Below, piece after piece: positions 39,865 to 58,345 of a stretch of DNA of 58,345 nucleotides. The first letter of the stretch is position 1, and every line of letters begins with the position of its first letter. A program made the position numbers and the translations under genes. The notes below the pieces were generated by a model. It had not been told where the DNA came from. It searched no databases and was given only the letters and a program-made list of their open reading frames with translations. This DNA is from Akkermansia muciniphila (GTDB taxonomy: Bacteria > Verrucomicrobiota > Verrucomicrobiia > Verrucomicrobiales > Akkermansiaceae): contig CAMAQB010000009.1 of NCBI GenBank assembly GCA_945860285.1, forward strand, positions 1-58,345. Direction: 5' to 3'.

Positions 39865-40212
39865 TCAGCGACCGCCGCGGATGACGTGGTTTTTATCATC
39901 GAGCACCACCTTGCGGGCCGTGATCGGTTTGTCCGTCAGACCAAAAGCCATGATCGCGACGCGCTCGCCTTTTTTGATGAGGTGCGCGGCACCGCCGTTG
40001 ATGATGATGTTTCCCGTACCCTGAGGACCCGGCTGCACGTAGGTTTCCAGTCGATTGCCCGTGCTGATCGACGCGACCAGCACTTTTTCTCCCGCCCACA
40101 AGCCGACGACTTCCATCAGGTCGGTGGGTATTTCAATGCTTCCTTCATACTCCACATCCGCTGAGGTGATCATGGCGCGGTGAAGTTTGGAAATGAGGAC
40201 TTGTCGAAACAC
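39865..40212 (-). CDS. panD: Aspartate 1-decarboxylase
   Basis: 115 residues from GTG 40212, which gives the canonical family start (FRQVLISKLHRAMITSADVEYEGSI). The open frame further upstream has no family resemblance. The proenzyme self-cleaves before Ser in the YEGS motif to form the pyruvoyl group, which decarboxylates aspartate to beta-alanine for pantothenate. Other conserved parts: GNRLETYV, GTGNIIINGGAAHLIKKGERVAIMAF. Length is normal. It is transcribed towards the OmpA-type gene, converging 16 bases apart. Confidence 0.94.
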   Translation of the reverse strand: MFRQVLISKLHRAMITSADVEYEGSIEIPTDLMEVVGLWAGEKVLVASISTGNRLETYVQPGPQGTGNIIINGGAAHLIKKGERVAIMAFGLTDKPITARKVVLDDKNHVIRGGR

Positions 40213-40556
40213 GGCACAAGGGAAGCGCGGGACCAGCAGATGGTCAAGCTTTCGCTTGCATTTTTCTGCACTGCTTTGCCAAGTCGATTGAACGAAAGAG
40301 GTCAGGCAGTATGCGCCCTCCGGTGACTCCGGTTGGGAGCGCTCGGTTCGCACACAAACCCCCTCCCCCTTCACCCCACGGCCACGTTCGAAAAAACCGT
40401 GCGGGTGGGGTCGGGATCAACCATTGTGACAAGCAGTGCGACCCCCGCAGGAAAGGCATCCGCCAACCAGACGGGAGCCCCGTTGGGATCGGCGCGATCA
40501 AACAATCATTGCCATTGCTCCTGATTCATGCTCAATTCCCCGTGCCCAACCAGACT
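40213..40556. other. Intergenic region between panD and the GH2 gene
   Basis: 344 bases between divergent genes. An imperfect hairpin (CCCCAC at 40375-40380 against GTGGGG near 40405-40410) sits in a stretch that resembles part of the MITE-like element at 43511 (shared TTCACCC...CCACGTTCG). It could be a degenerate fragment of that family. No other feature is supported. Confidence 0.35.
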
Positions 40557-43490: not shown

Positions 43491-43510
43491 AAGGCAGGGT
43501 AGGCTCGCCA

Positions 43511-43605
43511 AGCGTTCCCTCGAGGCGGAGGCATCACGGGCTAACACATCCTACTTCACCCTCCGCCCACGTTCGCGAAGAAAGCTGGTGAGGCAGGAGG
43601 ACCAT
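43511..43605 (+). mobile_element. MITE-like palindromic element, degenerate copy 1
   Basis: Shares with the copy at 49997 the ordered blocks AGCGTTCC, CTAAC, CTTCACCC, CGCG and GGTGAG-CAGGA, in the same orientation, but its terminal repeats are eroded. It lies directly after the GH2 gene. Confidence 0.5.
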
Positions 43606-43631
43606 CGAGAGTTGTGAATCCTTCCCAAAAT

Positions 43632-43679
43632 GATAGAGGTAGGAACGGGGCAATACAATGCCCCGTTCCTACCTCTATC
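43632..43679. terminator. Bidirectional hairpin with a 21-bp perfect stem
   Basis: Left arm 43632-43652 (GATAGAGGTAGGAACGG...) and right arm 43659-43679 are exact reverse complements around a six-base loop. TTTT follows on the plus side, and an AAAA run precedes the stem, giving T on the minus side. It lies between convergent genes, so it may terminate both. The long stem is unusual for a terminator and could also be a small inverted-repeat element. Confidence 0.6.
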
Positions 43680-43706
43680 CTTTTGCATGCCTATCGCAGG
43701 GAAATT

Positions 43707-43852
43707 TCTCCGAAAGTTCCGGTGGGGGCAGGGTAGTTGACGGGAAAATCATCCTTCCTGACTCACCGGCTTTGTTGGCGAACGGGAGCGCGGGGTGAAG
43801 GTTGGATGCGTTAAGGCGTGATGCGGCCGTCCCCCACCGGAACGCTCGGAGA
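43707..43852. mobile_element. MITE-like palindromic element, copy 2 (inverted)
   Basis: Terminal inverted repeats are perfect over the inner 13 bases GTTCCGGTGGGGG (43716-43728 and 43831-43843), and 20 of 22 positions match over 43707-43728 versus 43831-43852. The interior matches copy 3 (49997-50132) in reverse orientation, including ATCCTTCCTGACTCACCGG and GAGCGCGGGGTGAAG. It has no coding capacity, about 146 bases. Confidence 0.75.
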
Positions 43853-43877
43853 GCCTTCCCTGCCTGAAAAAATGAAA

Positions 43878-43907
43878 CGGCCCTCGGGCGATTAACCGCG
43901 AGGGCCG
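43878..43907 (-). terminator. Rho-independent terminator of the CBM/transglutaminase-like gene
   Basis: CGGCCCTCG (43878-43886) pairs with CGAGGGCCG (43899-43907). On the minus strand the stem is followed by TTTCATTTTTTC. It lies 21 bases past the stop at 43929. Confidence 0.65.
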
Positions 43908-43928
43908 GGGAAAGGAAAACCAGCGAAG

Positions 43929-45608
43929 TTACTTCGCCTTCAGTTCGATCGATTTCAGCGCCATGCCGCGTTGATTAGGAGCGGCGATTTTCAAGGTTGT
44001 CGCGCCTTTTTCCAGCTTCACTTCCACAGCTTCGGTTTTCTCCCACAGGCCGTTTGAATTAACCACCTTGATGGTGACCGGCGGGTTGCTGCCGGTGCTG
44101 ACGTTGAGCACCTGTTCCATATTGGGCGTAGCGGCAGTGACCTGCACCGTATACGTTCCGGCGGTGGCGACATCGAGATTGAATTCGATGAAGCTGTTGT
44201 CGATGCTCTTGTCGAAGTTCACCTGCTTGCCGCCGGTGAAGCAATCGATCGTGCGCGCAGCCAGCATTGTGGCAAACTGCGACGCTTCAAACACCGTCGA
44301 ACTGGCGGCGACCTTGATCGGTCCCGCCGCCGCTACCGCCTGCGTCGCTGCGTTTTTGTCGGGCACCAGTTCTTTTTCCGCCTCGTCCGCTTTGGCCGAT
44401 GCGGTGATGTCGGTTTTCACCAGTTGCAGGTCCTGGCGGATTTTGTTGGCCACCGCCATGATCTTGTCCTTCGCGGCGGGAGTCGCGGCGGCGAACCAGC
44501 GCAGATGTTCCACCTGGGAAAACTCCGCAGAGTGTTCGCGTTCCTGCACGGCGGCGATGAATTCCGTGCCGCCCATGCCTTCGAGTTTTGAAACCTGCCA
44601 GCCGCGGCCGTAGCCAACCTTCCAGGCGCTGCCCGGTTGGGGCTCGGCCATCGGGAAAGCCGTTTTGTATGCCACACAAGCGTGAGCCGGTTGGCCGACG
44701 CCGATGGCCGGAATGCCGAATGCGTGGCAAATGAACACACTCCACGAAGAGCGAGGACCACACTTGCCGCCGCCGGCGAGAACATTTTTGAACGTGCCTG
44801 CGAAATCGATCGGTGAATTCCTGCGCCAGACTTCGCTGGTCGAATTCACCACCAGTTCATTTTTCTTCAGGTCGGGGCGCCAGGTATTGATCATCTTGCG
44901 ACCCCAGGCGAGGTCCTCATTGGAGGCTCCCGAATTGACGATCTTGGTGTATTCCCAGACGGTCAGGTGGTCGAAGCTGGGGAACAACTCCTTGTTCTGG
45001 TGAGCGGTTTTGTAGTGCTTGAAGCGTTCGATGACATCCGACGGCGTTTTCGCGCCCCCGGCACCGATGTTCACCGATCCCGGCGGCAGCAGGCCGGTGG
45101 CAATGGCGAGTTTCAGGTAGATGCCTTGCTTGGCATCCGGGTCGGCCAGCATGATTTTGTTCCAGATGCCGAGAGCTTCCGTGGAAAGCATGTAGCTGTT
45201 GTCCTCACGGGCCGGGAGTCCGAGCGGCACCACGGCGATCAGATAGAGGTCGAGCGCCTCGGTGTTTTTCATCAACCAGCTCAGGAATGCGGCATTGGTG
45301 GGGTCGGCCTTGGCAAAAGCCGCCAGTTTGTCCGGCGTGGTTTTGGCGATGAACTGGCGTTGGTCGAGCACGCTGTGAAAGACCGGATCCTTCAGCAGTG
45401 AGGTCAGCGAAGCCTCATCGGCATTGGCAGGCATCTTGCTGTTCAGCCAGGTTGTGGCTCCGTTCAGGTAACCAGCGAAGTCCGCGCCTTTCACGGCGGC
45501 GTCGATTTCCTTTTCACCCGGTTCCCAGGCTCGCACGATCGCGGGAAGAGACCATAAAACCGCGCCCGTCAGCAGCGCGTTGATTGTTGTGTTTTTCATT
45601 ATTTTCAT
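43929..45608 (-). CDS. Secreted protein with transglutaminase-like core and C-terminal carbohydrate-binding-type domain
   Basis: 559 residues with a signal peptide (about 1-27, ending IVRAW). A second ATG three codons in (45599) is equally possible as start. The middle holds GGGKCGPRSSWSVFICHAFGIPAIGVGQPAHACVAYKT, whose Cys and His spacing resembles the transglutaminase/protease core. I treat that as probable rather than certain. The last ~130 residues form a beta sandwich like CBM6/CBM35 (VFEASQFATMLAARTIDCFTGGK, FIEFNLDVATAGTYTVQVTAATPN, VKLEKGATTLKIAAPNQRGMALKSIEL). It is probably periplasmic or surface-exposed and bound to polysaccharide. A terminator follows its stop. The next gene upstream is a secreted SGNH esterase. 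Confidence 0.65.
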   Translation of the reverse strand: MKIMKNTTINALLTGAVLWSLPAIVRAWEPGEKEIDAAVKGADFAGYLNGATTWLNSKMPANADEASLTSLLKDPVFHSVLDQRQFIAKTTPDKLAAFAKADPTNAAFLSWLMKNTEALDLYLIAVVPLGLPAREDNSYMLSTEALGIWNKIMLADPDAKQGIYLKLAIATGLLPPGSVNIGAGGAKTPSDVIERFKHYKTAHQNKELFPSFDHLTVWEYTKIVNSGASNEDLAWGRKMINTWRPDLKKNELVVNSTSEVWRRNSPIDFAGTFKNVLAGGGKCGPRSSWSVFICHAFGIPAIGVGQPAHACVAYKTAFPMAEPQPGSAWKVGYGRGWQVSKLEGMGGTEFIAAVQEREHSAEFSQVEHLRWFAAATPAAKDKIMAVANKIRQDLQLVKTDITASAKADEAEKELVPDKNAATQAVAAAGPIKVAASSTVFEASQFATMLAARTIDCFTGGKQVNFDKSIDNSFIEFNLDVATAGTYTVQVTAATPNMEQVLNVSTGSNPPVTIKVVNSNGLWEKTEAVEVKLEKGATTLKIAAPNQRGMALKSIELKAK

Positions 45609-45719
45609 CTGTTTGGATTGATTGTTACGTGGGAATCATTCGGAAAAGTCACCGGCTGAATTCCATGACTCCGGGGCTTGCTGGGATGCGCAGCTTCATG
45701 CTAAGGTCGAAAGAAAAAG

Positions 45720-46757
45720 TTATTTTTTCTCAATGCCCATCAACTCCTGCATCGTGTCCGCAAATGTTTTGCCGAGCAGGATGAAAAAACGTCCCTCGCC
45801 GAAATAATGGAATCCAAGATTGGAAGTGGCCCGCTGAAGCATGGCTTCCTCCTCCTTGGTGACCGGCTGGGTTTTCAGGTCGCGCTTGCTGACCCATCCC
45901 GCTGTCTTGATGTCGATGATCGCGGGATGCAACAATGGCGCGCTCTCGACCGACTTCACGTTGCCCTTGAATTCCGGCACGGTATTGACAAACCGATGAC
46001 CCTCGCGGACCTCCTTTTGCTTGATGTTGACCTTCTCGACATCGACGCCGTTGACGCCCATCACACCGACCACGCATTTCATGTCCGGGGCTTTGAATTC
46101 GGCGCGCAGGTCCTTGATCAGATGCACGAGGTTGGCGCCGTATTCCTTGCGGCCCTTGTCATCAAACAGGTCATTGTAGCCTTGGAACCAAACAAATCCC
46201 GCGATTTCATAACCGTCTTTCTCATTGTACGACGGAAAATGTTTTTTCAAGTTGTCGAGGGTCTCATGCACGATTCCGACCAAGGCGCGGTACTGGCCGC
46301 CGACATCCTCCGGTTTCACACCGTCGACCGGTCCGGCGCTCGGCGGACGGAAATTCACATACAAACTCTGACCGCCGGGACCGTATTTGATCAACAGCAC
46401 CTGTTCTTCGAGCGCCTCGCCCATGAAGTAACCAAACGAATATTCCGGGCCGATCTTGCTGCCCAGCTTGTCGTAGTCCTTGCGACCGCCGAAGCCGGTT
46501 TGCAACTTGTCATAGACGCCGCCGTTGGCCACCCAGACATCGTCGCGGGTGACGAAATTTTTGCCATCGGGCTTGAAAGTCTTCAGCAGGGCCGCCCGCG
46601 CTGGGTCCTTGTCTTCGCCGAGGAAATCGATGGTGCGAATATCCGCCTGGCCATCCATGTTCGACTGGCCCGCGAGGATGAAGACTTTCACGGGTTTCGC
46701 CTGCGACAGAGTAATCGATGCGAAGAACCAAACGAGTGCGTTGATGTGTTTTTTCAT
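45720..46757 (-). CDS. Secreted SGNH/sialate O-acetylesterase-type hydrolase
   Basis: 345 residues from ATG 46757, giving the signal peptide MKKHINALVWFFASITLSQA. The GQSNMDG block with the nucleophile Ser is at residues ~30-35 in FILAGQSNMDGQAD. The oxyanion Gly and Asn are in GYNDLFD (VWFQGYNDL). The C-terminal His probably lies in LGFHYFGEG. This is the carbohydrate-esterase (SASA, DUF303) pattern that deacetylates sugars. Its neighbours are a CBM-type secreted protein and a DUF1080-heme protein, so a polysaccharide-processing setting is likely. It lies 111 bases downstream of the latter on the same strand. Confidence 0.82.
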   Translation of the reverse strand: MKKHINALVWFFASITLSQAKPVKVFILAGQSNMDGQADIRTIDFLGEDKDPARAALLKTFKPDGKNFVTRDDVWVANGGVYDKLQTGFGGRKDYDKLGSKIGPEYSFGYFMGEALEEQVLLIKYGPGGQSLYVNFRPPSAGPVDGVKPEDVGGQYRALVGIVHETLDNLKKHFPSYNEKDGYEIAGFVWFQGYNDLFDDKGRKEYGANLVHLIKDLRAEFKAPDMKCVVGVMGVNGVDVEKVNIKQKEVREGHRFVNTVPEFKGNVKSVESAPLLHPAIIDIKTAGWVSKRDLKTQPVTKEEEAMLQRATSNLGFHYFGEGRFFILLGKTFADTMQELMGIEKK

Positions 46758-46868
46758 GGTTTTGGATCTCAAGGCTACGCCCCGCCTTTCGTCGATCTTT
46801 CAAGGAAATCCAGGCGGGCATGAAGAGGCAACGAACGTGCGCCAGGGGAGCCGGGGAAGAACTTCGAA

Positions 46869-49844
46869 CTAATGGCCCGCAGCAGGATAAGAATTCTCGA
46901 CCTCCTTTGGGGTAAACGCCGTGTCGCGATCGCTGAGCTGCTTGCGAATCGCTGCGACGCCCTGCGCCTTGACGGCGTCTTTGCCGTTGTCCCATGCAAA
47001 GCGAACAAAGGTTGCGATGTCGGCGAGCTGGGCATCGGAAATTTCGGGGTTCAGTTTGAATCCCGGCATCGCGGCGGCGGGAGTGTAACTTTTCCCTGCC
47101 ACCTGAAGCGGCCCAGCCATGCCTTGGAGCAATACGGCGACAAGGCGTTCGGGCGAATGGGTCACCCACTCGGAGCCGGCCAACGGCGGGCCGAGTTGCT
47201 CGATGCCCTTGCCATCGGGGCCATGACAGGCCATGCAGTGTGCCGTGAACAAAACTTCGCCCCGTTGGAACGCGGCGAGATGTCCCTTGTCCTGCGGTAG
47301 TTTGAAAGCAGCGGCGTTGGTTTTGATGCGGAGGCACTCGACCAAGTCTTCATTCAAGCTGGCATCGTTTGCCTCGCTGCCGAGGATTTCCTGAAAGCGT
47401 TTTTCCCGACCTTTCAAGCCGTTCACCGCGATCTCGCGGAAATAGGGTTGGCTGATGTCGCGCAACAGGAGTTCCTTTAAAAGCAGCAATGCTTTGTCAC
47501 CCGGCAGACTTCCCAGGCTGGCCGCAAGCTGTCGGCGCACGACAAGTTCCGGACGAGCGGCCAATTCCGTCAGGCGCGTCAACATGCTTTCCGCTTCTAA
47601 CGGAGCGAGCAACTCGGTCAAGCGGATGGCCATTTCCAGAACGTGCGGATCATCGGATCGGAGCGCCGCGGCAATCGCGGTGGCATTGACCGCCCCGAGA
47701 CCCTCCAGCGCCCAGAGCGCATGGATCTGGCCAAGCGGCTTAGCGGAATTTCCCGCCATGGCATTGAGCGCGGGCACGGCCGCGCGGTCGCCGCTGTCGA
47801 TGATCAATTGCTGTGCGGTGTCCCGCCACCAGCCGTTTTCGTGGCCGAGAAACGGCACCAGATCGACGGCGCTTTTTCCCAACAACTGCGGCGCTGCGCC
47901 TAACGGATTTCCCTTGTGCACGATCCGATACACCCGGCCCATGCGCGGGTTGCTTTCCAGATTGCGGTGCGCGATTTGTTCGCGAAGATAAGGCGTGACG
48001 TAGGCCTTGTGCTGAATGATGCCGTGATAGAGATCGACCAGAAACAAACTGCCGTCGGGCGCGTTGAACAAGTTGACCGGACGAAAGCGCTCGTCGGTCG
48101 ATGCGAGAAACTCGCGCTCCACCAAGGGATGCTCTCCAGTCAAAACACCGTCTTTTTCCGTGACCTTGAGCATGCGCACGAAATTGGCCGACGGCTCGCA
48201 GAAGAATGCGGTGTCGCGATACTGCGGTGGAAATTGGTCGCCGCGATAATACACCGGACCGCACGCCGCCGTCACCGCAGTGAGGTAGCCTTTTTCATCG
48301 ATGTCGCCTTCGCCGCCGCGGTTGACCGCCGGCGTGATGCGGGCGGGAAAGATTTTATCCCGATAGGAAATGTTAACCGCGCTGCCGGTGGACTTCGGGA
48401 AATTCACATTGCGCGACAACAGGTTCGGCATCAGCTCATCCGCTTTCATGCCAAACCAGTTTTCATTGTAAAACAGGCGTCCGAAGTTGTTTTGGGAAAT
48501 CCCCCACTGGCCGCGAAAGTCAGTACTCTGCTTCACCCACTTGCCGTCGATCTCCCGATAGCGTGCGTTCGATTTCGCATTGTAGATCCAATTGTCCAGG
48601 CCGCGCATCAGGCCGTTGCTGCGGTGTTCGACGTTGCCGGTGCCCGCGTAGTTTTCATCGATGACCGTCATCTTGCCGGGCTGGTCGTTGACATTTTCGA
48701 CGAAAAAAAGTTTTTCGTGCCCGGCATAAAGGATGCCGTTCTTGTAAAATGCAATCGATCGCGGTTGATTCAGACCGTCCATGAACACCTTGTAGTCTTC
48801 GAACGCTCCATCGTGATCCGCATCCGTTAGAATCGAAATGCGACCGATCGGATCGCTCTCGCCATCGGCCGCGACATTGAGCATGTAGCCGCGCATCTCG
48901 ACGACCCACATCCGGCCGTTGCCGTCAAAATTGATCGCCAGCGGACTTTGGATCATGGGGTCGCTGGCCACCACGCTCATGGCGAAATCCTCGTGGAGTT
49001 TGAATGTCTTCAGTCCCTGCTCGGGAGTCAGCGCGGGCGCGGGCGGGATTTGGTCGAAAGGGATCACATAGGTGTATCCCTTTTTTTTGGGTTTCTCCTC
49101 TGCTTTTGCTGCCGGTTTCGCCGCCGGATCGAGTGTCAGTTTTTGGATCCACACGTTGCGGAATCGCACCGGATTGTGATGCCCTTGCAACTTGACCGGA
49201 CGCGGTTCCGGGCCTTCTTTCTCGCCGACGCCGGTCTTGCCGGTGATGGAATAGTCGTCGTGAATCAAGGCGCCATTCTGACACACGGTGATGCGCGCGT
49301 TCTCGGTTTTCTTGTCGCCCTCAAATCGCGCGGCGCGGAAGGCGATGTCGTAACTCTGCCACTCGCCCGCTTTTTTGCTGACCAGCAGATCGGGCTTTTT
49401 CTGTTTGTAGATGCTGCCGCAGAAACTGGACTTGTAGTCCTCCGCCGCGATGCCGAACGAGTTGTGAATCTGGACCTCGTAGCGCTGTTGGATGTAGATG
49501 CCGGAATTGCCATCCGCTTCGGGGTCCTTGACGTCTTTCACCGCGTTGACGTTGAACTCCACGTGCATGCGGAAATCCTGATAACTCTCCTTCGTGAGCA
49601 GGCTGTCCCAGTCGGGCGAGGCGGTGAGAACGCCATCCGCAAAAACCCACTTGGTCGGATCCGGTCCCTCGGCCACGAGGCTATAGCCGTCAGGCCCGAC
49701 GAGGATGGCCGCGTCGGCAGGCCGCTCCGCTTTGGCGATGTCGATGATTCCCTTGGTGGTTCCAGGTTCGACCGCCAACGCGGGGTGAATGACGAAGGCC
49801 GTCAGGAAAAGCAGTGCGGAGAATTGGCAGATCTGGGAAGTCAT
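46869..49844 (-). CDS. DUF1080 plus PVC-type heme-binding protein with cytochrome c domain
   Basis: 991 residues from ATG 49844; a TTG six codons upstream is not needed. There is a signal peptide (about 1-25). The first ~235 residues are DUF1080 (3-keto-disaccharide hydrolase-like beta sandwich; SYQDFRMHVEFNV, GNSGIYIQQRYEVQIHNS). A linker rich in Lys/Ala precedes a beta-propeller of the PVC dehydrogenase type (FDGNGRMWVVEMRGYM, GLNQPRSIAFYKNGILYAG, HRSNGLMRGLDNWIYNAKSNARYR), then HEAT-like repeats. A C-terminal cytochrome c domain has C-MAC-H near residue 869 and a likely Met ligand in AAAMPGFKL. It is likely a periplasmic sugar oxidoreductase; substrate unknown. Confidence 0.87.
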   Translation of the reverse strand: MTSQICQFSALLFLTAFVIHPALAVEPGTTKGIIDIAKAERPADAAILVGPDGYSLVAEGPDPTKWVFADGVLTASPDWDSLLTKESYQDFRMHVEFNVNAVKDVKDPEADGNSGIYIQQRYEVQIHNSFGIAAEDYKSSFCGSIYKQKKPDLLVSKKAGEWQSYDIAFRAARFEGDKKTENARITVCQNGALIHDDYSITGKTGVGEKEGPEPRPVKLQGHHNPVRFRNVWIQKLTLDPAAKPAAKAEEKPKKKGYTYVIPFDQIPPAPALTPEQGLKTFKLHEDFAMSVVASDPMIQSPLAINFDGNGRMWVVEMRGYMLNVAADGESDPIGRISILTDADHDGAFEDYKVFMDGLNQPRSIAFYKNGILYAGHEKLFFVENVNDQPGKMTVIDENYAGTGNVEHRSNGLMRGLDNWIYNAKSNARYREIDGKWVKQSTDFRGQWGISQNNFGRLFYNENWFGMKADELMPNLLSRNVNFPKSTGSAVNISYRDKIFPARITPAVNRGGEGDIDEKGYLTAVTAACGPVYYRGDQFPPQYRDTAFFCEPSANFVRMLKVTEKDGVLTGEHPLVEREFLASTDERFRPVNLFNAPDGSLFLVDLYHGIIQHKAYVTPYLREQIAHRNLESNPRMGRVYRIVHKGNPLGAAPQLLGKSAVDLVPFLGHENGWWRDTAQQLIIDSGDRAAVPALNAMAGNSAKPLGQIHALWALEGLGAVNATAIAAALRSDDPHVLEMAIRLTELLAPLEAESMLTRLTELAARPELVVRRQLAASLGSLPGDKALLLLKELLLRDISQPYFREIAVNGLKGREKRFQEILGSEANDASLNEDLVECLRIKTNAAAFKLPQDKGHLAAFQRGEVLFTAHCMACHGPDGKGIEQLGPPLAGSEWVTHSPERLVAVLLQGMAGPLQVAGKSYTPAAAMPGFKLNPEISDAQLADIATFVRFAWDNGKDAVKAQGVAAIRKQLSDRDTAFTPKEVENSYPAAGH

Positions 49845-49996
49845 GAGTTGTGCGATAGACAAAGCCTGTACTGCATTCCGCTCCGAACCGCAAATGATTA
49901 ATTTTCCGCCCGCTGTCCCACTCGGCAGAAAAAACTACGGCGATCAAGCCAGGGAAAGGATTGCATGGAATGTCGCAATCAAAAGGCAAGGGACGA

Positions 49997-50132
49997 TCTC
50001 CGAGCGTTCCGGTGGGGGACGGTCGCGGATCACCCTAACGTGATATCCCTTCACCCCGCGCTCTCCCGCGCCAACAACGCCGGTGAGTCAGGAAGGATGA
50101 TGACCCGTCATCCATCCTACCCCCACCGGATC
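49997..50132. mobile_element. MITE-like palindromic element, copy 3
   Basis: The left end (49997-50018, ending in GTTCCGGTGGGGG) is identical over 22 bases to the right end of copy 2. The right end begins CCCCCACCGGATC at 50120. The interior is homologous to copies 1 and 2. Same size class (about 130-146 bases) and no gene inside. Confidence 0.7.
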
Positions 50133-50894
50133 CCCAGGGACTGCGATCCCTGCCTTTGAGCATCTCTCTGGCTTGATCGCAGTCGAAACTTGCCTTCATT
50201 ATATTGTTTTAAAAAATTCGGTTCTGCTATTTCCCAAACAGTCGATGGAAATGACATGGAACATCCCTCAGAAATTTCGCTTAAGCTCCTGGGACGACCG
50301 CTTAGGCCCTTGGTGCGACCTCTTCATGTGCATGTTGCCTGGGAACTTGCCTGGGCCACCTTCCAAAATCGGAAATGCCCGGCACAGGTGTGCTGGCCAC
50401 CTTCTCATAATTGTCAGTCCCCATCTCATAGTCCCCATCTCATAGGGGATGTCACTCAGATCGCAAAAAACTGCCGGTGGCTGCTTAGGGTAGGTTGGTT
50501 CATTTCATAGTGGTTGCGAAATTCCTTTGATCCGGGCAAAAAGCTGCCTCAGGAAACGCCGGACCTCCTCGGTCACGTCAAAGATTTTCGCACCCGAAAA
50601 TGGAACTCTGAACTTGCTGCCCGCGGGTGGTGGATCAGGTTATTCGACGGCAGAACGCGCTGTACGGTGTGTTGGTGATGTCAACACGGCGCAGGTTGCA
50701 GGAGACGATGAGAAGCGAGGCAAGTAGGACGGCAAACGTTCTGCGATGAAAATGTGTTTTGATTATTGGATGACTCGTTGGTTAGCCAAACAGATTTTTA
50801 TTGGTGCCGAAACTTGCGGGCGTTGGCAGACCGGATGTCACATTCATGACAGTGCAAATCCTCTCAGCCCGTGGATTCGCGACTTCCGTACTGC
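50133..50894. other. Gene-free interval after MITE copy 3
   Basis: About 760 bases. It contains a doubled GTCCCCATCTCATAG motif around 50417-50443, related to the flanking repeats of the toxin-antitoxin module. Open frames here are short, have no family resemblance, and have poor starts. I see nothing else supportable. Confidence 0.5.
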
Positions 50895-51830
50895 TCAAGG
50901 TTTCTGTTCCAACCACGCCTTCAATTCCGTGATTTCCTCTGCGGTCAGCCGGTGTTTGGGAGGCATGTGGCCGAAGTCCACCAGCACGCGGATCGGGTGG
51001 GAGTGAACCCGGTAGAGCGGCGCGCGGTCGCCATCTTCATCGTGACATTTCGTGCAGGTTTTCATTTCGAGCGGCTTGCCGTAATCGGGCTGTCGATCAC
51101 CCGGCGGAAAGAAAAAGCGCGAGCGCGGCTGGTTAGCAATGTGATGGTTGATGGCCGCCGTGAGCGCCTCGTCGTTAACAAGGTCGGCGCGGGCGGGATG
51201 AATCGCGAGCGGACCGGAGGAATGGCATTTGTAACAACCGGTGCCCTCGAACTTGACCTTCGCACCTTTTATTTCAGCGAAATAATCGAGCGGTGGATCG
51301 ACCGTCAGGTCCTGCACGATGGAAAAGTAGCCCCAGTTTTTGTCGGTGGAGGTTTTTTGCACGAGCAGGTAAACCCGCACGGTGTCATTGGCGAAGGCGG
51401 CGATGTGATTGAGCATCGGCCTGCGGATGATGTCTTCCTGCGTGCTGATCAGACCGACATCGGAAACTGGCACGGCCAGTCCCTGGTCAAAAAGATCGCG
51501 CACCTGCCTCATGTAGGTTTTGACCTCCTCTTCCGTCAGCCCCAGCGCGCCGGATCGGGCATGCGGCGGCAGGGGGGTCACCGCATCTGTCCATTTTTTG
51601 TGGATTTTATCGACCCCCACCGAGGAACTGAGCGCGTCAAAATCCTGCCGGGTGAATTTTGTTAGATCGAGCGGCGGTTCCCGCAACAGCCCGGTGTCGG
51701 TGGGGATCGCGGGCTTGATGTGCACGGGTACAATTTCTTCGTCCCCTTGCAGTCGGGGAGACAGTTCCGGCAACAGCAGGGCCAGGAGCAGCAGTGCGAT
51801 TTTCCATACGAATGGGAAGGTGAAACGCAT
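50895..51830 (-). CDS. Secreted diheme cytochrome-like protein
   Basis: 311 residues from ATG 51830, giving a signal peptide (RFTFPFVWKIALLLLALLLPELSP). There are two heme-attachment motifs, CYKCH near residue 200 and CTKCH near 258. The C-terminal KHRLTAEEITELKAWLEQKP is typical of small periplasmic cytochromes that end in a helix. The N-terminal 150 residues have no recognised family. Its redox partners are unknown. It lies 126 bases downstream of a DUF2231-like gene on the same strand and might receive electrons from, or be co-expressed with, it. Confidence 0.78.
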   Translation of the reverse strand: MRFTFPFVWKIALLLLALLLPELSPRLQGDEEIVPVHIKPAIPTDTGLLREPPLDLTKFTRQDFDALSSSVGVDKIHKKWTDAVTPLPPHARSGALGLTEEEVKTYMRQVRDLFDQGLAVPVSDVGLISTQEDIIRRPMLNHIAAFANDTVRVYLLVQKTSTDKNWGYFSIVQDLTVDPPLDYFAEIKGAKVKFEGTGCYKCHSSGPLAIHPARADLVNDEALTAAINHHIANQPRSRFFFPPGDRQPDYGKPLEMKTCTKCHDEDGDRAPLYRVHSHPIRVLVDFGHMPPKHRLTAEEITELKAWLEQKP

Positions 51831-51956
51831 ACGAGCAATCAACTCCGCTCACTCTAGATGGCCGCACCGCTGTGTCGAGGATATTCCGGAAAACATCCGA
51901 CTGCGGTTGTTGGGATCACGGCTGTTCAGGCGGCGTTGGATTTGCCCCTTTTCATG

Positions 51957-52460
51957 TTAATTATTGTCGACCTTGGTTTTCAAGCTGACTGCTCCCTTCT
52001 CCGGCAGGCGAAAATCCGGCCTGCGAATCCTGCCACCTGATTCCGCGATCCATATTCCCGAGCCCAGCGCCACCAGACAGCAAGCTGCCGCAGCGAAGGA
52101 AACATACCTTCCTATCGAAAAGCGCCAAATGCTGGCGCCAAGTGCAACTGTGGAAACAAGCGCGCTCAGATACATCAGCTTTGACCATACCTCGGCACGT
52201 TCTTCGTGCGACTCAAGGGCCTGCTCGACGTTGGAATCCAGGAAAACCCGAACCGTTCCTTTCTCGTATCGTTCAAACGCGGCTTCGCCGGTTGACATGA
52301 CTATCGCAGTCATCCAGCCACAGAGTGCGGCAATGGCGAGTCCCGTGAGCAATGTCGCTTTGTTGCGCAGGACGATCCCGACAAGGATCGGAATGATGGC
52401 AATCCCGCTACCGAGGAAGGGCAGGTGATTTACAGCGAGGTGAAGGTGCTCTTGTGACAT
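51957..52460 (-). CDS. DUF2231-like four-helix membrane protein
   Basis: 167 residues. Four hydrophobic helices are visible (about 8-30, 35-52, 92-112 and 117-137). The N-terminal EHLHLAVNHLPFLGSG resembles the conserved His-containing start of DUF2231 proteins (H-x-x-x-H-FP), which are often found with cytochromes. A Glu/Arg-rich loop lies between helices 2 and 3. An inner-membrane location is likely, and the diheme protein behind it fits a redox context. Function unproven. Confidence 0.65.
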   Translation of the reverse strand: MSQEHLHLAVNHLPFLGSGIAIIPILVGIVLRNKATLLTGLAIAALCGWMTAIVMSTGEAAFERYEKGTVRVFLDSNVEQALESHEERAEVWSKLMYLSALVSTVALGASIWRFSIGRYVSFAAAACCLVALGSGIWIAESGGRIRRPDFRLPEKGAVSLKTKVDNN

Positions 52461-52593
52461 GGGAATTGCAGAGTATCAGTCCCGTTTTTTCGTGAATATG
52501 GGGTATAACCCTACATTGTCCGGGCAGTCGGGCATCCTGCCGTCCCGGGTTTTTTATGCGTTATCATGCGAAGTGAATGTCCCCGTTTCATGA

Positions 52594-52743
52594 ATCAAAC
52601 GGTGTAGCGCCGTAGGTGCGGCATCTTTGTAGAACATGAACATCAAATGACCAAGCCCCGTCAGGGGCGACATATCTGCTGGATTCCGCACCTACGGCGC
52701 AGGGAATTTATTGCGGAATGAAACCCCTTTCGGGGCCGAACGT
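52594..52743. repeat. Dispersed intergenic repeat, single copy
   Basis: About 150 bases that recur at 56465-56655. Ordered blocks are GCGCCGTAGGTGCGGCATC, TTTGTAGAACATGAACATC, AAGCCCCGTCAGGGGCGAC, CCGCAC.TACGGCGCAGGG and GAAACCCCTTTCGGGGCCGAA. The internal GCCCCGTCAGGGGC and CCCCTTTCGGGG are short hairpins, and the outer GCGCCGTAGGTGCGG pairs with CCGCACCTACGGCGC. It fills most of the gap between the DUF2231-like gene and the next one. Confidence 0.8.
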
Positions 52744-52777
52744 TTGAGCGCATCCGCGGCGGGATGGGAGCTTGATT

Positions 52778-53611
52778 TCATTTTGACGGCTTGTCGCCGG
52801 CAGAAGGCTTTGTTTTTTCGGTTTCTTGTTCTTTGACCATGTGCCCGCTGATGAGGAACTGCTTGGATTTGCCGTGATCCTCACGATTCATCCAAATCCT
52901 GTGCATTCCGGAATCTTTCGCGTTGCTCAGCGCAATCTTTACTCCGGCGTACGCTGAAGCTTCATCTTTCCAAATGAGCTTACCTTCTGGGTCGAGAATT
53001 CTTAGAGTGAAGCTCGAATGACACATGCAAAACGCGGTCGAGGGCACGATCAACAGACTCCCAAGCTCGGGAGCACCCACGTTCAACGGAATCGTAAACA
53101 CGCGATCTTCCGGCACCCAAAACCATGCAAGTTCCGAGGGAGCGTCCTTGGTGGTGGCCTGAATCGTATACCGACTGCGGTTATATTCTGTTGTAATTTC
53201 GATGTCTCTGGCCTCCAGCTCAAACCAGAAGGGAATGTCGCCTCCCAGCTTCGCCATGTCGTCGATCGCGTAAGCCAATTCCGAGTATGACAACTCCCGT
53301 GAAGTCGAAAAAGTGGCCTTGCTAGCCTTGAAATCCAGAACAACATCAAGTGCGTTTGGTACACAACACTTATACACTGATGCCACGTCCTCAAGTGCTT
53401 TGTTGTTAGCTGACGCTGAGTATATTCCGGAAACCGTATATTCGTGCTTGGACGCGGCGATCAAACTGTGGGTTACGGCTTTGGGAAGCTTGAGGATCTT
53501 ACGGTCGGGCCGCGCTGGCTCTTCAGCGGTCTTGGCGAAAGGGGCGTCTTCCGCATGCATTGTAGACAGAACTGCGACGAACAGCACCCCAATGATGGTC
53601 ATGGTTTTCAT
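52778..53611 (-). CDS. Secreted hypothetical protein
   Basis: 277 residues from ATG 53611, which gives a signal peptide (MKTMTIIGVLFVAVLSTMHAEDA); the longer frame adds 12 residues without one. No family is recognised. The middle has a beta-alpha pattern typical of heavy-metal-associated domains (VASVYKCCVPNALDVVLDFKASKATFSTSRELSYSELAYAIDDMAKLGGDIPFWFEL). A CC pair and a later CMCH Cys pair could bind metal or heme. The C-terminus is Lys/Glu-rich. Codon use is less GC-rich than in neighbours, which may reflect later acquisition. Confidence 0.65.
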   Translation of the reverse strand: MKTMTIIGVLFVAVLSTMHAEDAPFAKTAEEPARPDRKILKLPKAVTHSLIAASKHEYTVSGIYSASANNKALEDVASVYKCCVPNALDVVLDFKASKATFSTSRELSYSELAYAIDDMAKLGGDIPFWFELEARDIEITTEYNRSRYTIQATTKDAPSELAWFWVPEDRVFTIPLNVGAPELGSLLIVPSTAFCMCHSSFTLRILDPEGKLIWKDEASAYAGVKIALSNAKDSGMHRIWMNREDHGKSKQFLISGHMVKEQETEKTKPSAGDKPSK

Positions 53612-53821
53612 TGCAATATTCGAGTAATGGTTTTGCTCAGAGAACAATCATGAAGATTCAGCGGGAAATGGCAAATAGGTTCTTCGTGAATTTGGCAATG
53701 AGATAGTGTTGGAATTTTCCGGGAGTTGTTCCGTTTTTTATCTAATTTGAAGGAGTGAAAATCCTTGTTCTCATCGTCAGTGGGTCGGCACAAGGGACAT
53801 CCGCACTTCACTGCGCCGCAC

Positions 53822-54250
53822 CTATTCCTGGAGGATCTTATTCGACAATTCGTCTCGATTTTCTTCCTCTGGAGGCCAGTGGCGGGCCATGGTGTCGCCC
53901 AGGGTCCGGATGGCGGAAGATAGCGCTTCGACTTTGCGATTTTCGCGAAGGAGTTCTGAAAGCTCCCTGGTGATTTCTTGCCAGTATTCCGGCGCGATTT
54001 TCCCGGCAATTCCGCTGTCGCCCAGAACCACGAAGCGACGGCGGCGCGTGAAAAGCACGATGAGTGCTCCGTTGTGGTTTTTGGTCCGGTCCATTTCCAA
54101 CCGATGAAAGAGTTTCCACGCATGGCGCTCCAGGCGGAAATACCAAGCCGAGGTGATCGCGACGCGGATCTCCCCACTGGTCTGCGCCTCGGCGCAGCGG
54201 ATTTGATCGACCACTGTCTGTTCTTCTTCGGGTGCGAGAAAGTCTTTCAT
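53822..54250 (-). CDS. TPM-domain protein, soluble
   Basis: 142 residues. TPM-fold motifs: EIRVAITSAWYF, LERHAWKLFHRLEMDRTKNHNGALIVLFTRRRRFVVLGDSGIAGKIAPEYWQEI. It lacks a signal peptide and membrane segments, so it is probably cytoplasmic or leaves by another route. It is the last gene of a LemA-TPM-TPM run, starting 24 bases after the preceding stop. The TPM domain is linked with phosphatase or membrane-integrity roles in other organisms; its role here is not known. Confidence 0.75.
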   Translation of the reverse strand: MKDFLAPEEEQTVVDQIRCAEAQTSGEIRVAITSAWYFRLERHAWKLFHRLEMDRTKNHNGALIVLFTRRRRFVVLGDSGIAGKIAPEYWQEITRELSELLRENRKVEALSSAIRTLGDTMARHWPPEEENRDELSNKILQE

Positions 54251-54274
54251 GATAGAATCCTGCCGCTAAAAAAA

Positions 54275-55039
54275 TCACCAACTGCCGCTCGCACCTCCAC
54301 CACCGGATGAGCCACCACCTCCCGAAAATCCTCCGCCACCGCCTCCGCCACTACTCCAACCACCACCCCAGTTGCGGTGACGCGATCCTCCTCGCGATAT
54401 GATCACGTCGGGAGTCCCTCGCTTCTGAAACTGAGCGAGCATGATGGCAATGAACAGAAGCATGAACAGCAGCGGCAAGGGGCTTGAATTGTTCTGATGA
54501 TCGAGACGGGTTCGCCCGGTGCCCTTGTATTCACCCTTGGTCGCAGCGATGATGGCCTCCACTCCGCTGGTGACGGCGGCCTCGCGACGGCCTTCCCTCA
54601 TCTGCGGAATGATGACTTCTTCGATGATCTGTTTGCATCGCGCGTCCGGCAATACTCCCTCCAGACCGTATCCGGTGTGAATGCGCAGTTTCCTGTCTGC
54701 GGCAAATACGAAAAGTATGGCTCCGTTGTCTTTGCCAGCAGAACCGGGCTTCCACGCTTCGAAGACCCGCTGGGAATAGTCGACCATTTCCGCATCCTCG
54801 GGGACTGCCTTGAAGATCGCGACGATGAGTTGCGACGACGTCTCGCGCTCGTAGTCCTGGAGTCGCGAATCGAGCGACTGATAGACCGATGGACTCAACC
54901 AGCCCGCGTCATCGAAAACATAATGCGGCTTCGGACTGGGTGGCACGGCACCGCTCACTGCGGAGACTGACAGCAACAGGCACGCGCCGGCCAGCAGCCA
55001 TGCCAGACAACGGGCGGGCAATGAACGCGCATGGGTCAT
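54275..55039 (-). CDS. TPM-domain membrane protein (YgcG-like)
   Basis: 254 residues. It has a signal peptide (about 1-30), then the TPM domain (YVFDDAGWLSPSVYQSLDSRLQDYERETSSQLIVAIFKAV, DNGAILFVFAADRKLRIHTGYGLEGVLPDARCKQIIEEVI). One membrane helix (PLPLLFMLLFIAIMLAQF, about 190-208) and a Gly/Ser-rich tail (SSGGGGGGGFSGGGGSS) follow. This is the YgcG layout found next to LemA. The start overlaps the LemA stop (ATGA), so translation is coupled. Confidence 0.85.
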   Translation of the reverse strand: MTHARSLPARCLAWLLAGACLLLSVSAVSGAVPPSPKPHYVFDDAGWLSPSVYQSLDSRLQDYERETSSQLIVAIFKAVPEDAEMVDYSQRVFEAWKPGSAGKDNGAILFVFAADRKLRIHTGYGLEGVLPDARCKQIIEEVIIPQMREGRREAAVTSGVEAIIAATKGEYKGTGRTRLDHQNNSSPLPLLFMLLFIAIMLAQFQKRGTPDVIISRGGSRHRNWGGGWSSGGGGGGGFSGGGGSSGGGGASGSW

Positions 55040-55653
55040 TTGCCCGAGCCGCTTTTCCCGCCGAAGTCAAAGTTCACATCGGGCGCCTTCTCCGCTCCGG
55101 ACTCGGCTTGAAAGTACGGCTTGGGATGAAAGCCGAGCATGCCTGCGAAAAACACCGCCGGCACCTTGCGCACACTTGTGTTGTATTCCTTCACGACATC
55201 ATTGAAGCGTCCGCGCTCCACTGCAATGCGGTTCTCAGTTCCTTCGAGCTGCGCCTGAAGATCGCGGAATCCGGCGCTCGCCTTGAGATCGGGATAACGC
55301 TCGGCCACCACCAGCAAGCGCTGCAAGGCACCGCCGAAAGCTCCCTGGGTCTTCTGAAACTCCTCAAGCTTCTCCGCGGTTTCCGGCGCCTTGTTTGCAT
55401 CGATGGTCATGCGCCCGACCGACGCGCGGGCGTTGGTGACACTCTCCAAGGTGGATTTCTCGAAATCGGCGGAACCCTGCACGGTCTTGACGAGATTCGG
55501 CACAAGGTCGGCGCGACGTTGATATTGATTGGAAACCTGAGCCCACGCGGCATCCACTCCCTGTTGTTTACCGACGAGTCCGTTGTAGGACGAGATGCCG
55601 CCCAATACAAGCACCAGGACCGCCACGACAATGATAACGAGGACTTTTTTCAT
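55036..55653 (-). CDS. LemA family protein
   Basis: 205 residues. One N-terminal membrane helix (VLVIIVVAVLVLVLGGISSY) precedes the helical LemA domain, with GVDAAWAQVSNQYQRRADLVPNLVKTVQGSADFEKSTLESVTNARASVG and RLLVVAERYPDLKASAGFRDLQAQLEGTENRIAVERGRFNDVVKEYNTSVRKVPAVFFAGMLGFHPKPYF, all family hallmarks. It is embedded in the inner membrane with the helical part outside. First gene of the LemA-TPM-TPM operon. Its upstream region is 124 bases and has no recognised promoter. Confidence 0.92.
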   Translation of the reverse strand: MKKVLVIIVVAVLVLVLGGISSYNGLVGKQQGVDAAWAQVSNQYQRRADLVPNLVKTVQGSADFEKSTLESVTNARASVGRMTIDANKAPETAEKLEEFQKTQGAFGGALQRLLVVAERYPDLKASAGFRDLQAQLEGTENRIAVERGRFNDVVKEYNTSVRKVPAVFFAGMLGFHPKPYFQAESGAEKAPDVNFDFGGKSGSGK

Positions 55654-55777
55654 ACGCCGGAATTGATAACAGTACCCCGAGGCTTTGTCGAATTGAATTC
55701 AGCTTATTTCTTCGAGTGCGCTCCTCGGAACGATCCAGCCAAGGGGGATCTCACCGGCAGGGATTTTTCAATGAAAG

Positions 55778-56212
55778 TCATGGATCGAATTTGGGATGTG
55801 ATCGCACCCAATGCGCAAGGTCAGCAAACACCTTCTTGTCACCGCAGACGCAGTCATCCCACACCATTCCGTTGAATCGCTCTTGATGTGCTTTCATGTA
55901 TTCCATTCGGGCCTTCCGATTGCGCTCGGGATTGGGAACGTCGAATGACTTCAGGGCATCGCGCAATGCCCTCGCTGCGTCAACTCTCCCAATTCTTTCA
56001 TACGCATCAGCAAAAACCGAGTATGGAGGATTATTGGGCCAGTCATTCTCGAAGAAATAGCCCATACCCCCATTGTCGATTACACCCTGCGCAGAATAGA
56101 TGATGGCAACCGTCTTGTAAGGATCCTCCAAATCTTCCATTCGCTCGCCGGCTTCACCCAATTTCTTGAAGGCAATCTCACTGGCCTTATCGAGCAAAGC
56201 ATCGTCTGTCAT
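55778..56212 (-). CDS. DUF4375-like (DMP19-type) protein
   Basis: 144 residues, cytoplasmic, no signal. The middle has VAIIYSAQGVIDNGGMGYFFENDWPNNPPYSVFADAYERIGRVDAARALRDAL, which matches the DUF4375 pattern (NGG-x-x-YF followed by Ala-rich helices). It ends with a Trp/His-containing tail. Function unknown; such proteins often occur in polymorphic-toxin or immunity neighbourhoods. It lies behind the 46-bp repeat array. On composition alone it could be a former integron cassette, but no palindromic site follows its stop. Confidence 0.6.
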   Translation of the reverse strand: MTDDALLDKASEIAFKKLGEAGERMEDLEDPYKTVAIIYSAQGVIDNGGMGYFFENDWPNNPPYSVFADAYERIGRVDAARALRDALKSFDVPNPERNRKARMEYMKAHQERFNGMVWDDCVCGDKKVFADLAHWVRSHPKFDP

Positions 56213-56418
56213 TGGAGCAAGGTTCTGGTTGGGAGTTTCTCAGTCACACCCACAAAGAATGAGCGCTAGAAACGCAAGTGTGATTGAGGCGGACCCGTTC
56301 AAAATTGTCGTGCAGTTATTTCGTTCAGTAGCGGATGATATCGATCCTGCTGAAAAGGAGAAGGTCTTTTTTTGCTGGCTCAACTATGTATGCAAAGCGC
56401 ATGTCCCCATTTCTTGAC

Positions 56419-56556
56419 TCAAGCGTTGAAGCGCCGTAGGTACGGCATCTTTGTAGAACATGAATCAAGCGTTGAAGCGCCGTAGGTGCGGCATCTTTGT
56501 AGAACATGAATCAAGCGTTGAAGCGCCGCGGGTGCGGCATCTTTGTAGAACATGAA
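56419..56556 (+). repeat. Three tandem 46-bp repeats
   Basis: Units at 56419-56464, 56465-56510 and 56511-56556, each beginning TCAAGCGTTGAAGCGCCG and ending with TTTGTAGAACATGAA. They differ at two or three positions only. The third unit leads straight into the rest of the dispersed repeat also found at 52594 (56557-56657). Confidence 0.9.
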
Positions 56557-56657
56557 CATCAAATGACCAAGCCCCGTCAGGGGCGACATATCTGCTAGAT
56601 TCCGCACGTACGGCGCAGGGAATTGATTGAGGAATGAAACCCCTTTCGGGGCCGAAA
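56557..56657. repeat. Dispersed intergenic repeat, second copy
   Basis: Continues the repeat of 52594-52743: CAAGCCCCGTCAGGGGCGAC hairpin, then CCGCACGTACGGCGCAGGG and the CCCCTTTCGGGG hairpin. It ends five bases before the attC-like site. Confidence 0.8.
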
Positions 56658-56662
56658 CCCAG

Positions 56663-56783
56663 AACGACTAAGCGCGTGCACCCCTACCAGCGGCAGCGAG
56701 CGTCGATCACGGGGTTAGTTTTGTAGCCAGGGATAATCATCGAAACTGAACGGCTGGTAGGGGTTGTCACGACGCGGCTTGTT
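56663..56783 (-). other. attC-like recombination site B
   Basis: 121 bases on the minus strand, from AAC (56783-56781) to GTT (56665-56663), beginning 7 bases after the PEP-CTERM stop codon. Outer arms AACAAGCCGCG and CGCGCTTAGTCGTT pair imperfectly. Inner arms AACCCCTACCAGC and GCTGGTAGGGGT pair almost perfectly. AAC...GTT ends plus nested arms define integron attC sites. The flanking GTTCTGG departs from the GTTRRRY consensus. Confidence 0.55.
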
Positions 56784-56789
56784 CGCCGA

Positions 56790-57455
56790 TCAGTTAGTAG
56801 CGGTAGCGCGCCTATTTCGCCTAGTTAGGAGCAATGCTCCGCCGCAGGCGAGGAGAGTGACTGAACCAGGCTCGGGGATCAGTGTATGCGGTATCGATCC
56901 GGGTATGGCCTCCCGAAACGTTGCTTCAACGTAGCCCCGAGGATTAGAACCAGTTCTTGAGGCACTGTCTGGATAAATCCAGCCTTCGCTATACTCCGAG
57001 TAATAAAAATCCCTTCTGTCTGGATACACTGGATCATTGAATGCGTAAATGGCGTAGGTAATTTCGTAATATGTTCCGGTTCCATTGATACCAAATCCTG
57101 ATTGGTTGGCAATGGTCGGAAATGGCCAAGGGAAGTATGATTACCAGAAATAAACGAAAGAGAACTCGTCTCCGTCGTATACTTTGCGTAACTCAAAGTC
57201 TCCGGCGAATCCATAAGAGTTAATTAGTAAGGTAATGCTGTCACGTGCTGCATTCGCTCCAGCTTGGTTACCTAAAAACATCGAGGTTCCGAATGAGCCA
57301 TCAAAACTGACGTCGTAGAGAGTCCCTCCTATTGAAAGCGATCCAATTGCTACGATGGCCTGTTGCTCATTTGTCATGACTGTCGCGCCGTGGATTAAAG
57401 GCGCGGCAAAAGCAAGGGTGGCAGATATAGCTAGCGATTTTAGTATTTTCATCAT
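56790..57455 (-). pseudogene. PEP-CTERM protein gene interrupted by one in-frame stop
   Basis: A signal peptide (MKILKSLAISATLAFAAPLIHG) opens the protein. One frame then runs through TLYDVSFDGSFGTSMFLGNQAGANAARDSITLLIN to VYFW, where a TAA at 57143-57141 intervenes. The same frame continues SYFPWPFPTIANQSGFGINGTGTYYEITYAI to a perfect PEP-CTERM tail (IPEPGSVTLLACGGALLLTRRNRR). Total 221 residues including the stop position. PEP-CTERM proteins are sorted to the envelope and cleaved by exosortase. A single C-to-T change would make the TAA from CAA. The gene is framed by the two attC-like sites. Readthrough or a recent null mutation are both possible. Confidence 0.75.
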
Positions 57456-57468
57456 TTGGATTTATGGC

Positions 57469-57588
57469 AACGTCAAAGAGCACGCAACCCTATCAGCTGA
57501 GACGCACGTCGATCACGGTTTTGAGGTTGAAACTACAGGAGATCATGTAAACAGGCGACTGATAGGGGTTGCTGTGTCTCGACTTGTT
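57469..57588 (-). other. attC-like recombination site A
   Basis: 120 bases on the minus strand from AAC (57588-57586) to GTT (57471-57469), beginning about 15 bases after the MazF stop codon and ending 13 bases before the next ATG. It starts AACAAGTCGAGACACAGC and ends CGTGCTCTTTGACGTT, with inner arms AACCCCTATCAG and CTGATAGGGTT. It shares with site B the central CCGTGATCGACG and the overall length. The start AACAAGTCG resembles known attC left ends. Confidence 0.6.
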
Positions 57589-57603
57589 CTCCTTCTTCGT
57601 TCT

Positions 57604-57918
57604 TTAGAGCTCCATTGCATAACGAAGTGCTGTCTTCACTTCCTCAAGAACCGAGCCGTAGAATATACCAATCGGTCCCTCAAGCTCATGGTCTTGAATC
57701 GCCTGAAGACCTTGGACATTCGCATAACTCCGCGCGCGCAGAAAGTGCATCGAAGGAAGCGCAACCTCGTAATCCGAATCTCGGTAGGCCGTCGTAATTG
57801 GGACACAAAGCGATAATGCTCTGGGAGCGCTCAGATCGTGGCGCGAAACCACCATCATCATTCTCGCCTTGCCGCTCATGCCAAGATCTACCCTGTAAAC
57901 TTCACCCGGCTTAGTCAT
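57604..57918 (-). CDS. PemK/MazF family toxin (endoribonuclease)
   Basis: 104 residues. The MazF fold is recognisable from KPGEVYRVDLGMSGKARMMMVVSRHDLSAPRALSLCVPITTAYRDSDYEVAL (catalytic Arg/Thr region) and the C-terminal YANVQGLQAIQDHELEGPIGIFYGSVLEEVKTALRYAMEL. It cleaves mRNA when freed from its antitoxin. It overlaps the antitoxin by 8 bases. Lying in a cassette-like setting with an attC-like site behind it, it may stabilise the array; that role is inferred. Confidence 0.82.
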   Translation of the reverse strand: MTKPGEVYRVDLGMSGKARMMMVVSRHDLSAPRALSLCVPITTAYRDSDYEVALPSMHFLRARSYANVQGLQAIQDHELEGPIGIFYGSVLEEVKTALRYAMEL

Positions 57919-58141
57919 CGAAAACGGAATCTAAGGCTGCCTGTCGCATAGATGAATCCACGAGTAAATCATCGTTGGCCGCGAGTGTCTCTACCCTGAA
58001 CGGCAGCCCACGACGCAACCGCACCTGGGTGAGAAACATTCGTATCGCTTCGGTCGTGCTTAAGCCGAGTTCTTGGAAGACGGCCTCCGCTTCTATCTTC
58101 AAGGTTGGATCTACCCTTGCTCTGACTACAGTATCGCTCAT
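57911..58141 (-). CDS. RelB/DinJ-type antitoxin
   Basis: 76 residues from ATG 58141. The ribbon-helix-helix part SDTVVRARVDPTLKIEAEAVFQELGLSTTEAIRMFLTQVRLRRGLPF is typical of RelB/DinJ. The acidic tail (NDDLLVDSSMRQAALDSVFDD) wraps the toxin. The longer frame to 58210 crosses its promoter and operator and is not used. Pairing a RelB-type antitoxin with a MazF-type toxin is a mixed combination. Autoregulation through the adjacent operator is expected. Confidence 0.82.
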   Translation of the reverse strand: MSDTVVRARVDPTLKIEAEAVFQELGLSTTEAIRMFLTQVRLRRGLPFRVETLAANDDLLVDSSMRQAALDSVFDD

Positions 58142-58147
58142 GCGCTT

Positions 58148-58175
58148 GTTGTAGCACGTAAAGGCTACAAAGCAA
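58148..58175 (-). promoter_or_regulatory. Promoter and palindromic operator of the RelB/MazF operon
   Basis: TTGTAGC (58149-58155) and GCTACAA (58164-58170) form a perfect 7-bp inverted repeat with an 8-base spacer, typical of a ribbon-helix-helix operator. It overlaps TTGCTT (58170-58175) and TACAAC (58148-58153), spacing 16, on the minus strand. Transcription would begin at the antitoxin ATG. Confidence 0.6.
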
Positions 58176-58206
58176 GGAATTTTTCTGTAGGTATAGGCCA
58201 CGGCGA

Positions 58207-58345
58207 TCAAGCTAGGGAGAGAAGTTTATCGCGGTAGTTCTTATCCAGTAATGCTTTCAGGCGTTTTTTAGGGGTGCTTTTTTGGTAAGTTTGATCGTTT
58301 TTGAGGAGGTTCATTACGATTCTGCGCACGGTGCCTAGGTTCTTC
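58207..58345 (-). mobile_element. C-terminus of an ISAs1-like transposase, cut by the window edge
   Basis: The last 45 residues of a minus-strand frame, ending at TGA 58207, read NLGTVRRIVMNLLKNDQTY...KRLKALLDKNYRDKLLSLA. This matches the ISAs1/H-repeat family end (alpha-helical LNLL followed by basic KRxxAxxDxxYxxxLL). The rest lies outside. Any terminal inverted repeat on this side would fall between 58176 and 58207, and I cannot identify one. Confidence 0.7.

Follow-up and report, generated by a model that had tools for sequence, protein, structure and literature searches.

Two cassettes at the right end of the window

The window, that is, the whole stretch of DNA that was analysed (58,345 nucleotides), is the entire contig C9 of a 3.7-Mb genome in 162 contigs, an Akkermansiaceae-like MAG of the Verrucomicrobiales. 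Toward its right end, on the minus strand, two cassettes were found, each closed by an attC site. The first carries two genes. Gene 1 (57911..58141) encodes a RelB/DinJ-type antitoxin (Pfam RelB, 3e-12; TIGR02384 over the cut-off) and starts at the ATG at 58141, a longer ORF with a TTG start reaching to 58210 being less likely. Gene 2 (57604..57918) encodes a PemK/MazF-like toxin (Pfam PemK_toxin, 7e-8, over the cut-off), homologues of which occur in other cassette arrays of relatives. The toxin–antitoxin cargo suspected in a preliminary description of this DNA was thus recovered by profile matches to both partners. The second cassette holds the frame of a PEP-CTERM surface protein (56790..57455, minus strand), recognized from its translation, with the C-terminal part matching TIGR02595 over the cut-off. 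This frame contains one in-frame TAA, at 57141–57143.

Site A (57464..57594, minus strand) runs from AAC at 57588 to GTT at 57469, is 120 nt long, and closes the toxin–antitoxin cassette. Site B (56658..56789, minus strand) runs from AAC at 56783 to GTT at 56663, is 121 nt long, and closes the PEP-CTERM cassette as the final attC of the array. The two sites lie 806 nt apart on the same strand, and beyond A the contig continues for another 0.75 kb on the right. They share AACAAG-CG, AACCCCTA-CAG and CCGTGATCGACG, and align to each other with a score of 40, compared with a maximum of 14.5 over 500 shuffles; the pair of attC-like repeats of the preliminary description is present as described in place, strand and length. 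When positions 40000–58345 were scanned with a covariance model, A scored 129 bits, B 138 bits, and the runner-up stretch 10 bits; A and B belong to the training set of that model, and its independent support comes from the attC matches in other genomes. An Rfam search with the attC repeats matched no family.

Both sites follow stop codons, that of the toxin (57604) before A and that of the PEP-CTERM frame (56790) before B, and the ORFs and sites are co-oriented. The earlier statement that each site stands directly behind an ORF holds in this respect, but the frame before B is broken by the TAA noted above. The AAC...GTT core of the R boxes is present in both A and B. As had been remarked, the core flanks diverge from GTTRRRY, being GTTGCCA in A and GTTCTGG in B; a copy on contig C4 of the same genome is perfect (GTTAGGC). 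Because these R′ boxes are imperfect, the recombination activity of A and B may be low. Directly behind the last attC, at 56420–56560, there are three near-identical tandem units of ~46 nt (TCATGTTCTACAAAGATGCCG...GGCGCTTCAACGCTTGA).

On its right, the array is cut by the 3′ end of a multi-copy ISAs1-type transposase gene (58198..58345, minus strand; family assigned by reading its frame), with copies on C106, C68 and C21. The integrase had been expected to the right of the window, an expectation that finds no support: the window closes in this transposase 3′ end, where the contig itself stops. No intI was found within the window, including the part to the right of the array, and a search of the window for attI found none.

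Fold, distribution and mobility of the attC sites

The fold was examined in an alignment (A1) of A, B and six more copies from the same genome (C25, C4, C39, C57 twice, C76). RNAalifold, run without a given structure, returned an L-box stem with an unpaired column 20 and a long inner stem; 10 of the pairs show compensatory changes. The helices occupy columns 5–11/129–135, 17–24/115–121 (column 20 unpaired) and 29–39/103–113. When the attC structure was named by hand (R box, spacer, L box, inner stem), 85% of cells were paired, as against 28–44% when the same structure was slid by 1–3 columns, and its covariation score was reached by none of 500 shuffles. AAC and GTT, the known attC core, are paired in all seven aligned copies that have letters there; being invariant, these pairs are neutral with regard to pairing. 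The folding energies of individual sites are only mildly unusual (z −1.5 to −2.5) and are not decisive alone, so that the case for the structure rests on covariation. The hairpin with extrahelical base for which the preliminary description suggested a test is found across the aligned copies, together with the L box and an unpaired central spacer.

A covariance-model search of the genome gave 17 attC sites (E < 1e-3) on 13 contigs, occurring singly or in pairs, further copies of the kind that the preliminary description suggested looking for. Most of the 17 have a same-strand ORF end within about 75 nt. That description had set scattered single copies in random orientation against the integron reading; the copies are indeed scattered, as single sites or pairs, but their orientation follows that of the ORFs and their fold has the R/L-box anatomy, so that the integron reading stands. 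R1-type attC sites were found in 43 of 54 genomes searched. Genus-wide, among the attC matches listed, they form groups of 1–7 at up to 33 places per genome. A classical array, with dozens of co-oriented attC sites behind intI, is present in the one-contig genome G039; in this integron (L124/L125, G039:C1 2967000–3000000) the attC sites are mostly ~109 nt and of one orientation.

It may be noted that two separate attC copies (L128, G000:C19 6747–7016; L131, G000:C7 1–157) carry a group II intron, inserted in antisense orientation at the R″ core; on L128 it matches Rfam RF02001 with 95 bits. A stretch of 58 bp of the same 5′ end also occurs in G004:C15. Group IIC-attC introns are known to target attC.

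One could take the two interrupted copies to mean that the 120-nt repeats have nothing to do with integrons and serve as intron targets, terminators or REP-like palindromes. We give this next to no weight, since the repeats sit behind ORFs, have R/L-box anatomy and occur in arrays beside intI and attI. Judged by sequence and covariation, and by the same attC type standing beside bona fide intI and attI in relatives, the repeats of 120 and 121 nt are attC sites, as the preliminary description had proposed.

The window toxin has homologues of 93% identity in G008 and of 73–75% identity in G001, G004, G005, G014 and G021. In G008, DNA homology (87.5%) spans 58190 to 57583, breaking off where the attC starts. 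The toxin–antitoxin cassette of G001 and G004 begins directly at the G|TT of an attC, and the G001 array is headed by attI. The cassette follows a HicBA-like cassette in G004 (a label taken from the reading frames), of which an 84% homologue lies at a different locus of the present genome, C57. The occurrence of the toxin–antitoxin and HicBA-like cassettes at different loci, with homology ending at the borders, is as cassette shuffling predicts. A comparison at C57 yielded no empty site: in congeners, the left flank maps to one contig and the right flank to another, gene order in this genus not being conserved.

Integrase genes and attI copies

XerC/D-like recombinases aside, intI has left a single trace in the genome, a remnant of 52 C-terminal residues on C118, next to a gene for acetolactate synthase. 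The remnant is cut by an IS, and the IS end to which it is joined is found at many contig ends; one of these is the left end of the window, where positions 2–148 belong to the same element. The integron system of this genome is probably inactive now. XerC/XerD-like matches on C2, C13 and C8 were rejected as integron integrases, as they skip TIGR02249 positions about 180–240, which we take to be the extra segment of IntI.

Of the 57 genomes searched, 25 have an intI above the TIGR02249 cut-off, and these include four of the nine congeners (G003, G004, G008, G009); most of the genomes searched are fragmented MAGs, in which intI could be absent from the assembly only. No genome of the genus was found to have more than one full intI. 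The G004 IntI scores 345 bits with TIGR02249 (cut-off 265); among solved structures, the best match is IntI4 (2a3v, 3e-71). Apart from Rubritalea profundi, the named records that carry this IntI are nearly all Verrucomicrobiales/Akkermansiaceae MAGs. In G004, the order is intI, attI and an R1-type attC, in divergent integron layout. The same genome has a second intI fragment (L110, G004:C15, 700–2400), joined to an ISAs1-type IS.

Upstream of intI, the attI pattern ...TAC[GT]AATAAATACTG|TT is conserved at 16 loci, with intI divergent in 15. A perfect TGTTC-N4-GAACA palindrome lies 219–306 nt before the attI core at 11 of these 16 loci (L106, L107, L108, L109, L138, L140, L144, L146, L147, L150, L156), compared with one of 173 background segments. 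A LexA motif of Verrucomicrobia was reportedly described by Erill et al. in 2016, and we take it to be this palindrome. With a probable LexA box before it, intI is probably under SOS control. The work of Erill et al. is cited in PMC8565304.

A repeat of ~300 bp ahead of the C57 cassettes proved to be an attI region, with the same pattern as that upstream of intI. A sequence-only model of attI (R2, built from 28 sequences) gave five matches in this genome (C7, C57, C134, and truncated ones on C23 and C12), and 97 over ten genomes of the genus (this one and nine congeners), with 2–27 in each. R2 also matched eight more genomes of the order, e.g., G042 11 times (with several intI copies) and G047 10 times (with no intI above the cut-off). 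Dispersed copies have the conserved columns of intI-linked attI, and their sequence diverges downstream of CTGTT. An attC was found within 3 kb downstream for at least 42 of the 95 attI matches analysed, at a median distance of 587 nt among those listed. When the upstream sequence of 31 dispersed attI copies was searched for IntI fragments over a length of 1.7–2.5 kb, none appeared, even at E 0.1; all four intI-linked attI used as positive controls showed IntI.

For 26 of 34 attI copies, the nearest relative was in the same genome, a value reached by none of 10,000 permutations; the copies have therefore been copied within lineages. The intI locus of G009 has only 136 bp (95%) in common with the C7 attI copy of that genome, while the C28 and C5 copies share more upstream sequence, including degenerate remains, recognized by eye, of the intI promoter region. 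The C25 copy of G008 resembles the intI locus minus intI, its attI being joined to a hairpin repeat and to 200 bp from the 3′ side of intI. The G009 C28 and C5 copies and that of G008 therefore suggest that complete integrons were copied and subsequently lost intI. The hairpin repeat (GCGTGAGGCAAAGCCTTTTACGC; L109:1962–2053, L031 about 5102–5152) borders many dispersed attI copies on their left and, in G008, also lies 3′ of intI.

A different view would make the attI-like repeats a dispersed promoter/operator leader, i.e., a regulon element placed before accessory genes, behind which cassettes merely tend to lie. The copies do carry repeated TGATAT motifs and often stand immediately upstream of start codons, and several of those in the genome of the window are accompanied by a short tail repeat. 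A sigma-70 promoter scan of one attI copy found none. We hold this explanation to be improbable, as the element is fixed beside intI at the 16 loci described above and the listed attC sites within 3 kb downstream of attI are co-oriented with it in 42 of 42 cases. Moreover, the homology between attI copies stops at CTG|TT, the known attI crossover point, where the first, unrelated cassette begins.

It is also rather unlikely, although less so than a regulon element, that IntI produced the dispersed attC sites solely by inserting cassettes off target (attG), and that the attI copies are decayed leftovers with no role. Such insertion is an established reaction (cited in PMC12901181), and this genome has many single-attC loci with no detectable attI, e.g., those on C4, C39, C76 and C30. 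However, with 97 attI matches in ten genomes, at least nearly half of them followed closely by a same-strand attC, attG insertion alone is insufficient.

Interpretation and comparison with known systems

The reading that we favor, with high confidence, is that the window holds a two-cassette remnant of an integron array (a CALIN), in which the toxin–antitoxin cassette ends in A and the PEP-CTERM cassette in B. The steps that go with it would be as follows. The IntI of this lineage would excise and insert cassettes as bottom-strand hairpins, with attI, attC and off-target sites as targets for insertion. The attI copies would derive from complete integrons through copying and loss of intI, and would act as landing pads served in trans wherever an intI survives. 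It is possible, and we put it forward tentatively, that the whole constitutes a distributed integron, in which one SOS-controlled integrase would serve many scattered attI pads at up to some 27 capture loci. In genomes that lose intI, pads and cassettes would then persist as fixed mini-arrays.

The accepted picture of an integron includes a single attI, located next to intI. In the literature covered, which was partial and included few subscription papers, no report was found of attI in several copies or as an orphan, nor of many attI alongside at most one intI, a layout that looks new. IntegronFinder 2.0 detects attI only for class 1 and, with default settings, passes over attC sites that stand alone (PMC9024848); standard software being blind to both, a scattered system of this kind would go unseen. 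Should the attI copies be functional in trans, it would become possible to test directly how CALINs arise, and the locus at which a cassette lands would matter, besides cassette order.

Integrons, including those of Verrucomicrobiota, and CALINs with several proposed origins are already known (PMC8618304). The array of A and B resembles a CALIN in having co-oriented attC sites behind small ORFs and no integrase in the array, and off-target insertion, intI loss and rearrangement, the origins put forward in PMC8618304, agree with the loci described here. In contrast to CALINs as usually recognized, many of these loci have a single attC, fewer than the two that IntegronFinder 2.0 requires by default (PMC9024848). 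At the head of many stands an attI copy, which is not among the described parts of CALINs. From a complete integron the array differs in that no intI adjoins it.

Sedentary chromosomal integrons of the Vibrio VCR type share with this system a lineage-specific, conserved attC, toxin–antitoxin cassettes, intI and attI (here in congeners) and a large single array (here in the relative G039); the difference lies in small scattered groups of attC (1–7, among the matches listed) versus one large array. The insertion of a group II intron at the attC R″ core, seen here in two copies, is a likeness to IIC-attC introns. Among known attI sites, attI2 of class 2 integrons has a similar core (AATAAAATG|TTRRRY, PMC12901181, compared with AATAAATACTG|TT here), whereas the present sites have a lineage-specific upstream region with TGATAT motifs and many genomic copies without intI. 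Finally, the delta-attI-type cassettes of mobile integrons (PMC12901181) likewise place attI-derived sequence away from intI; in those, however, a partial attI replaces the attC of a cassette within one array, whereas here attI units of ~115 nt head separate chromosomal loci.
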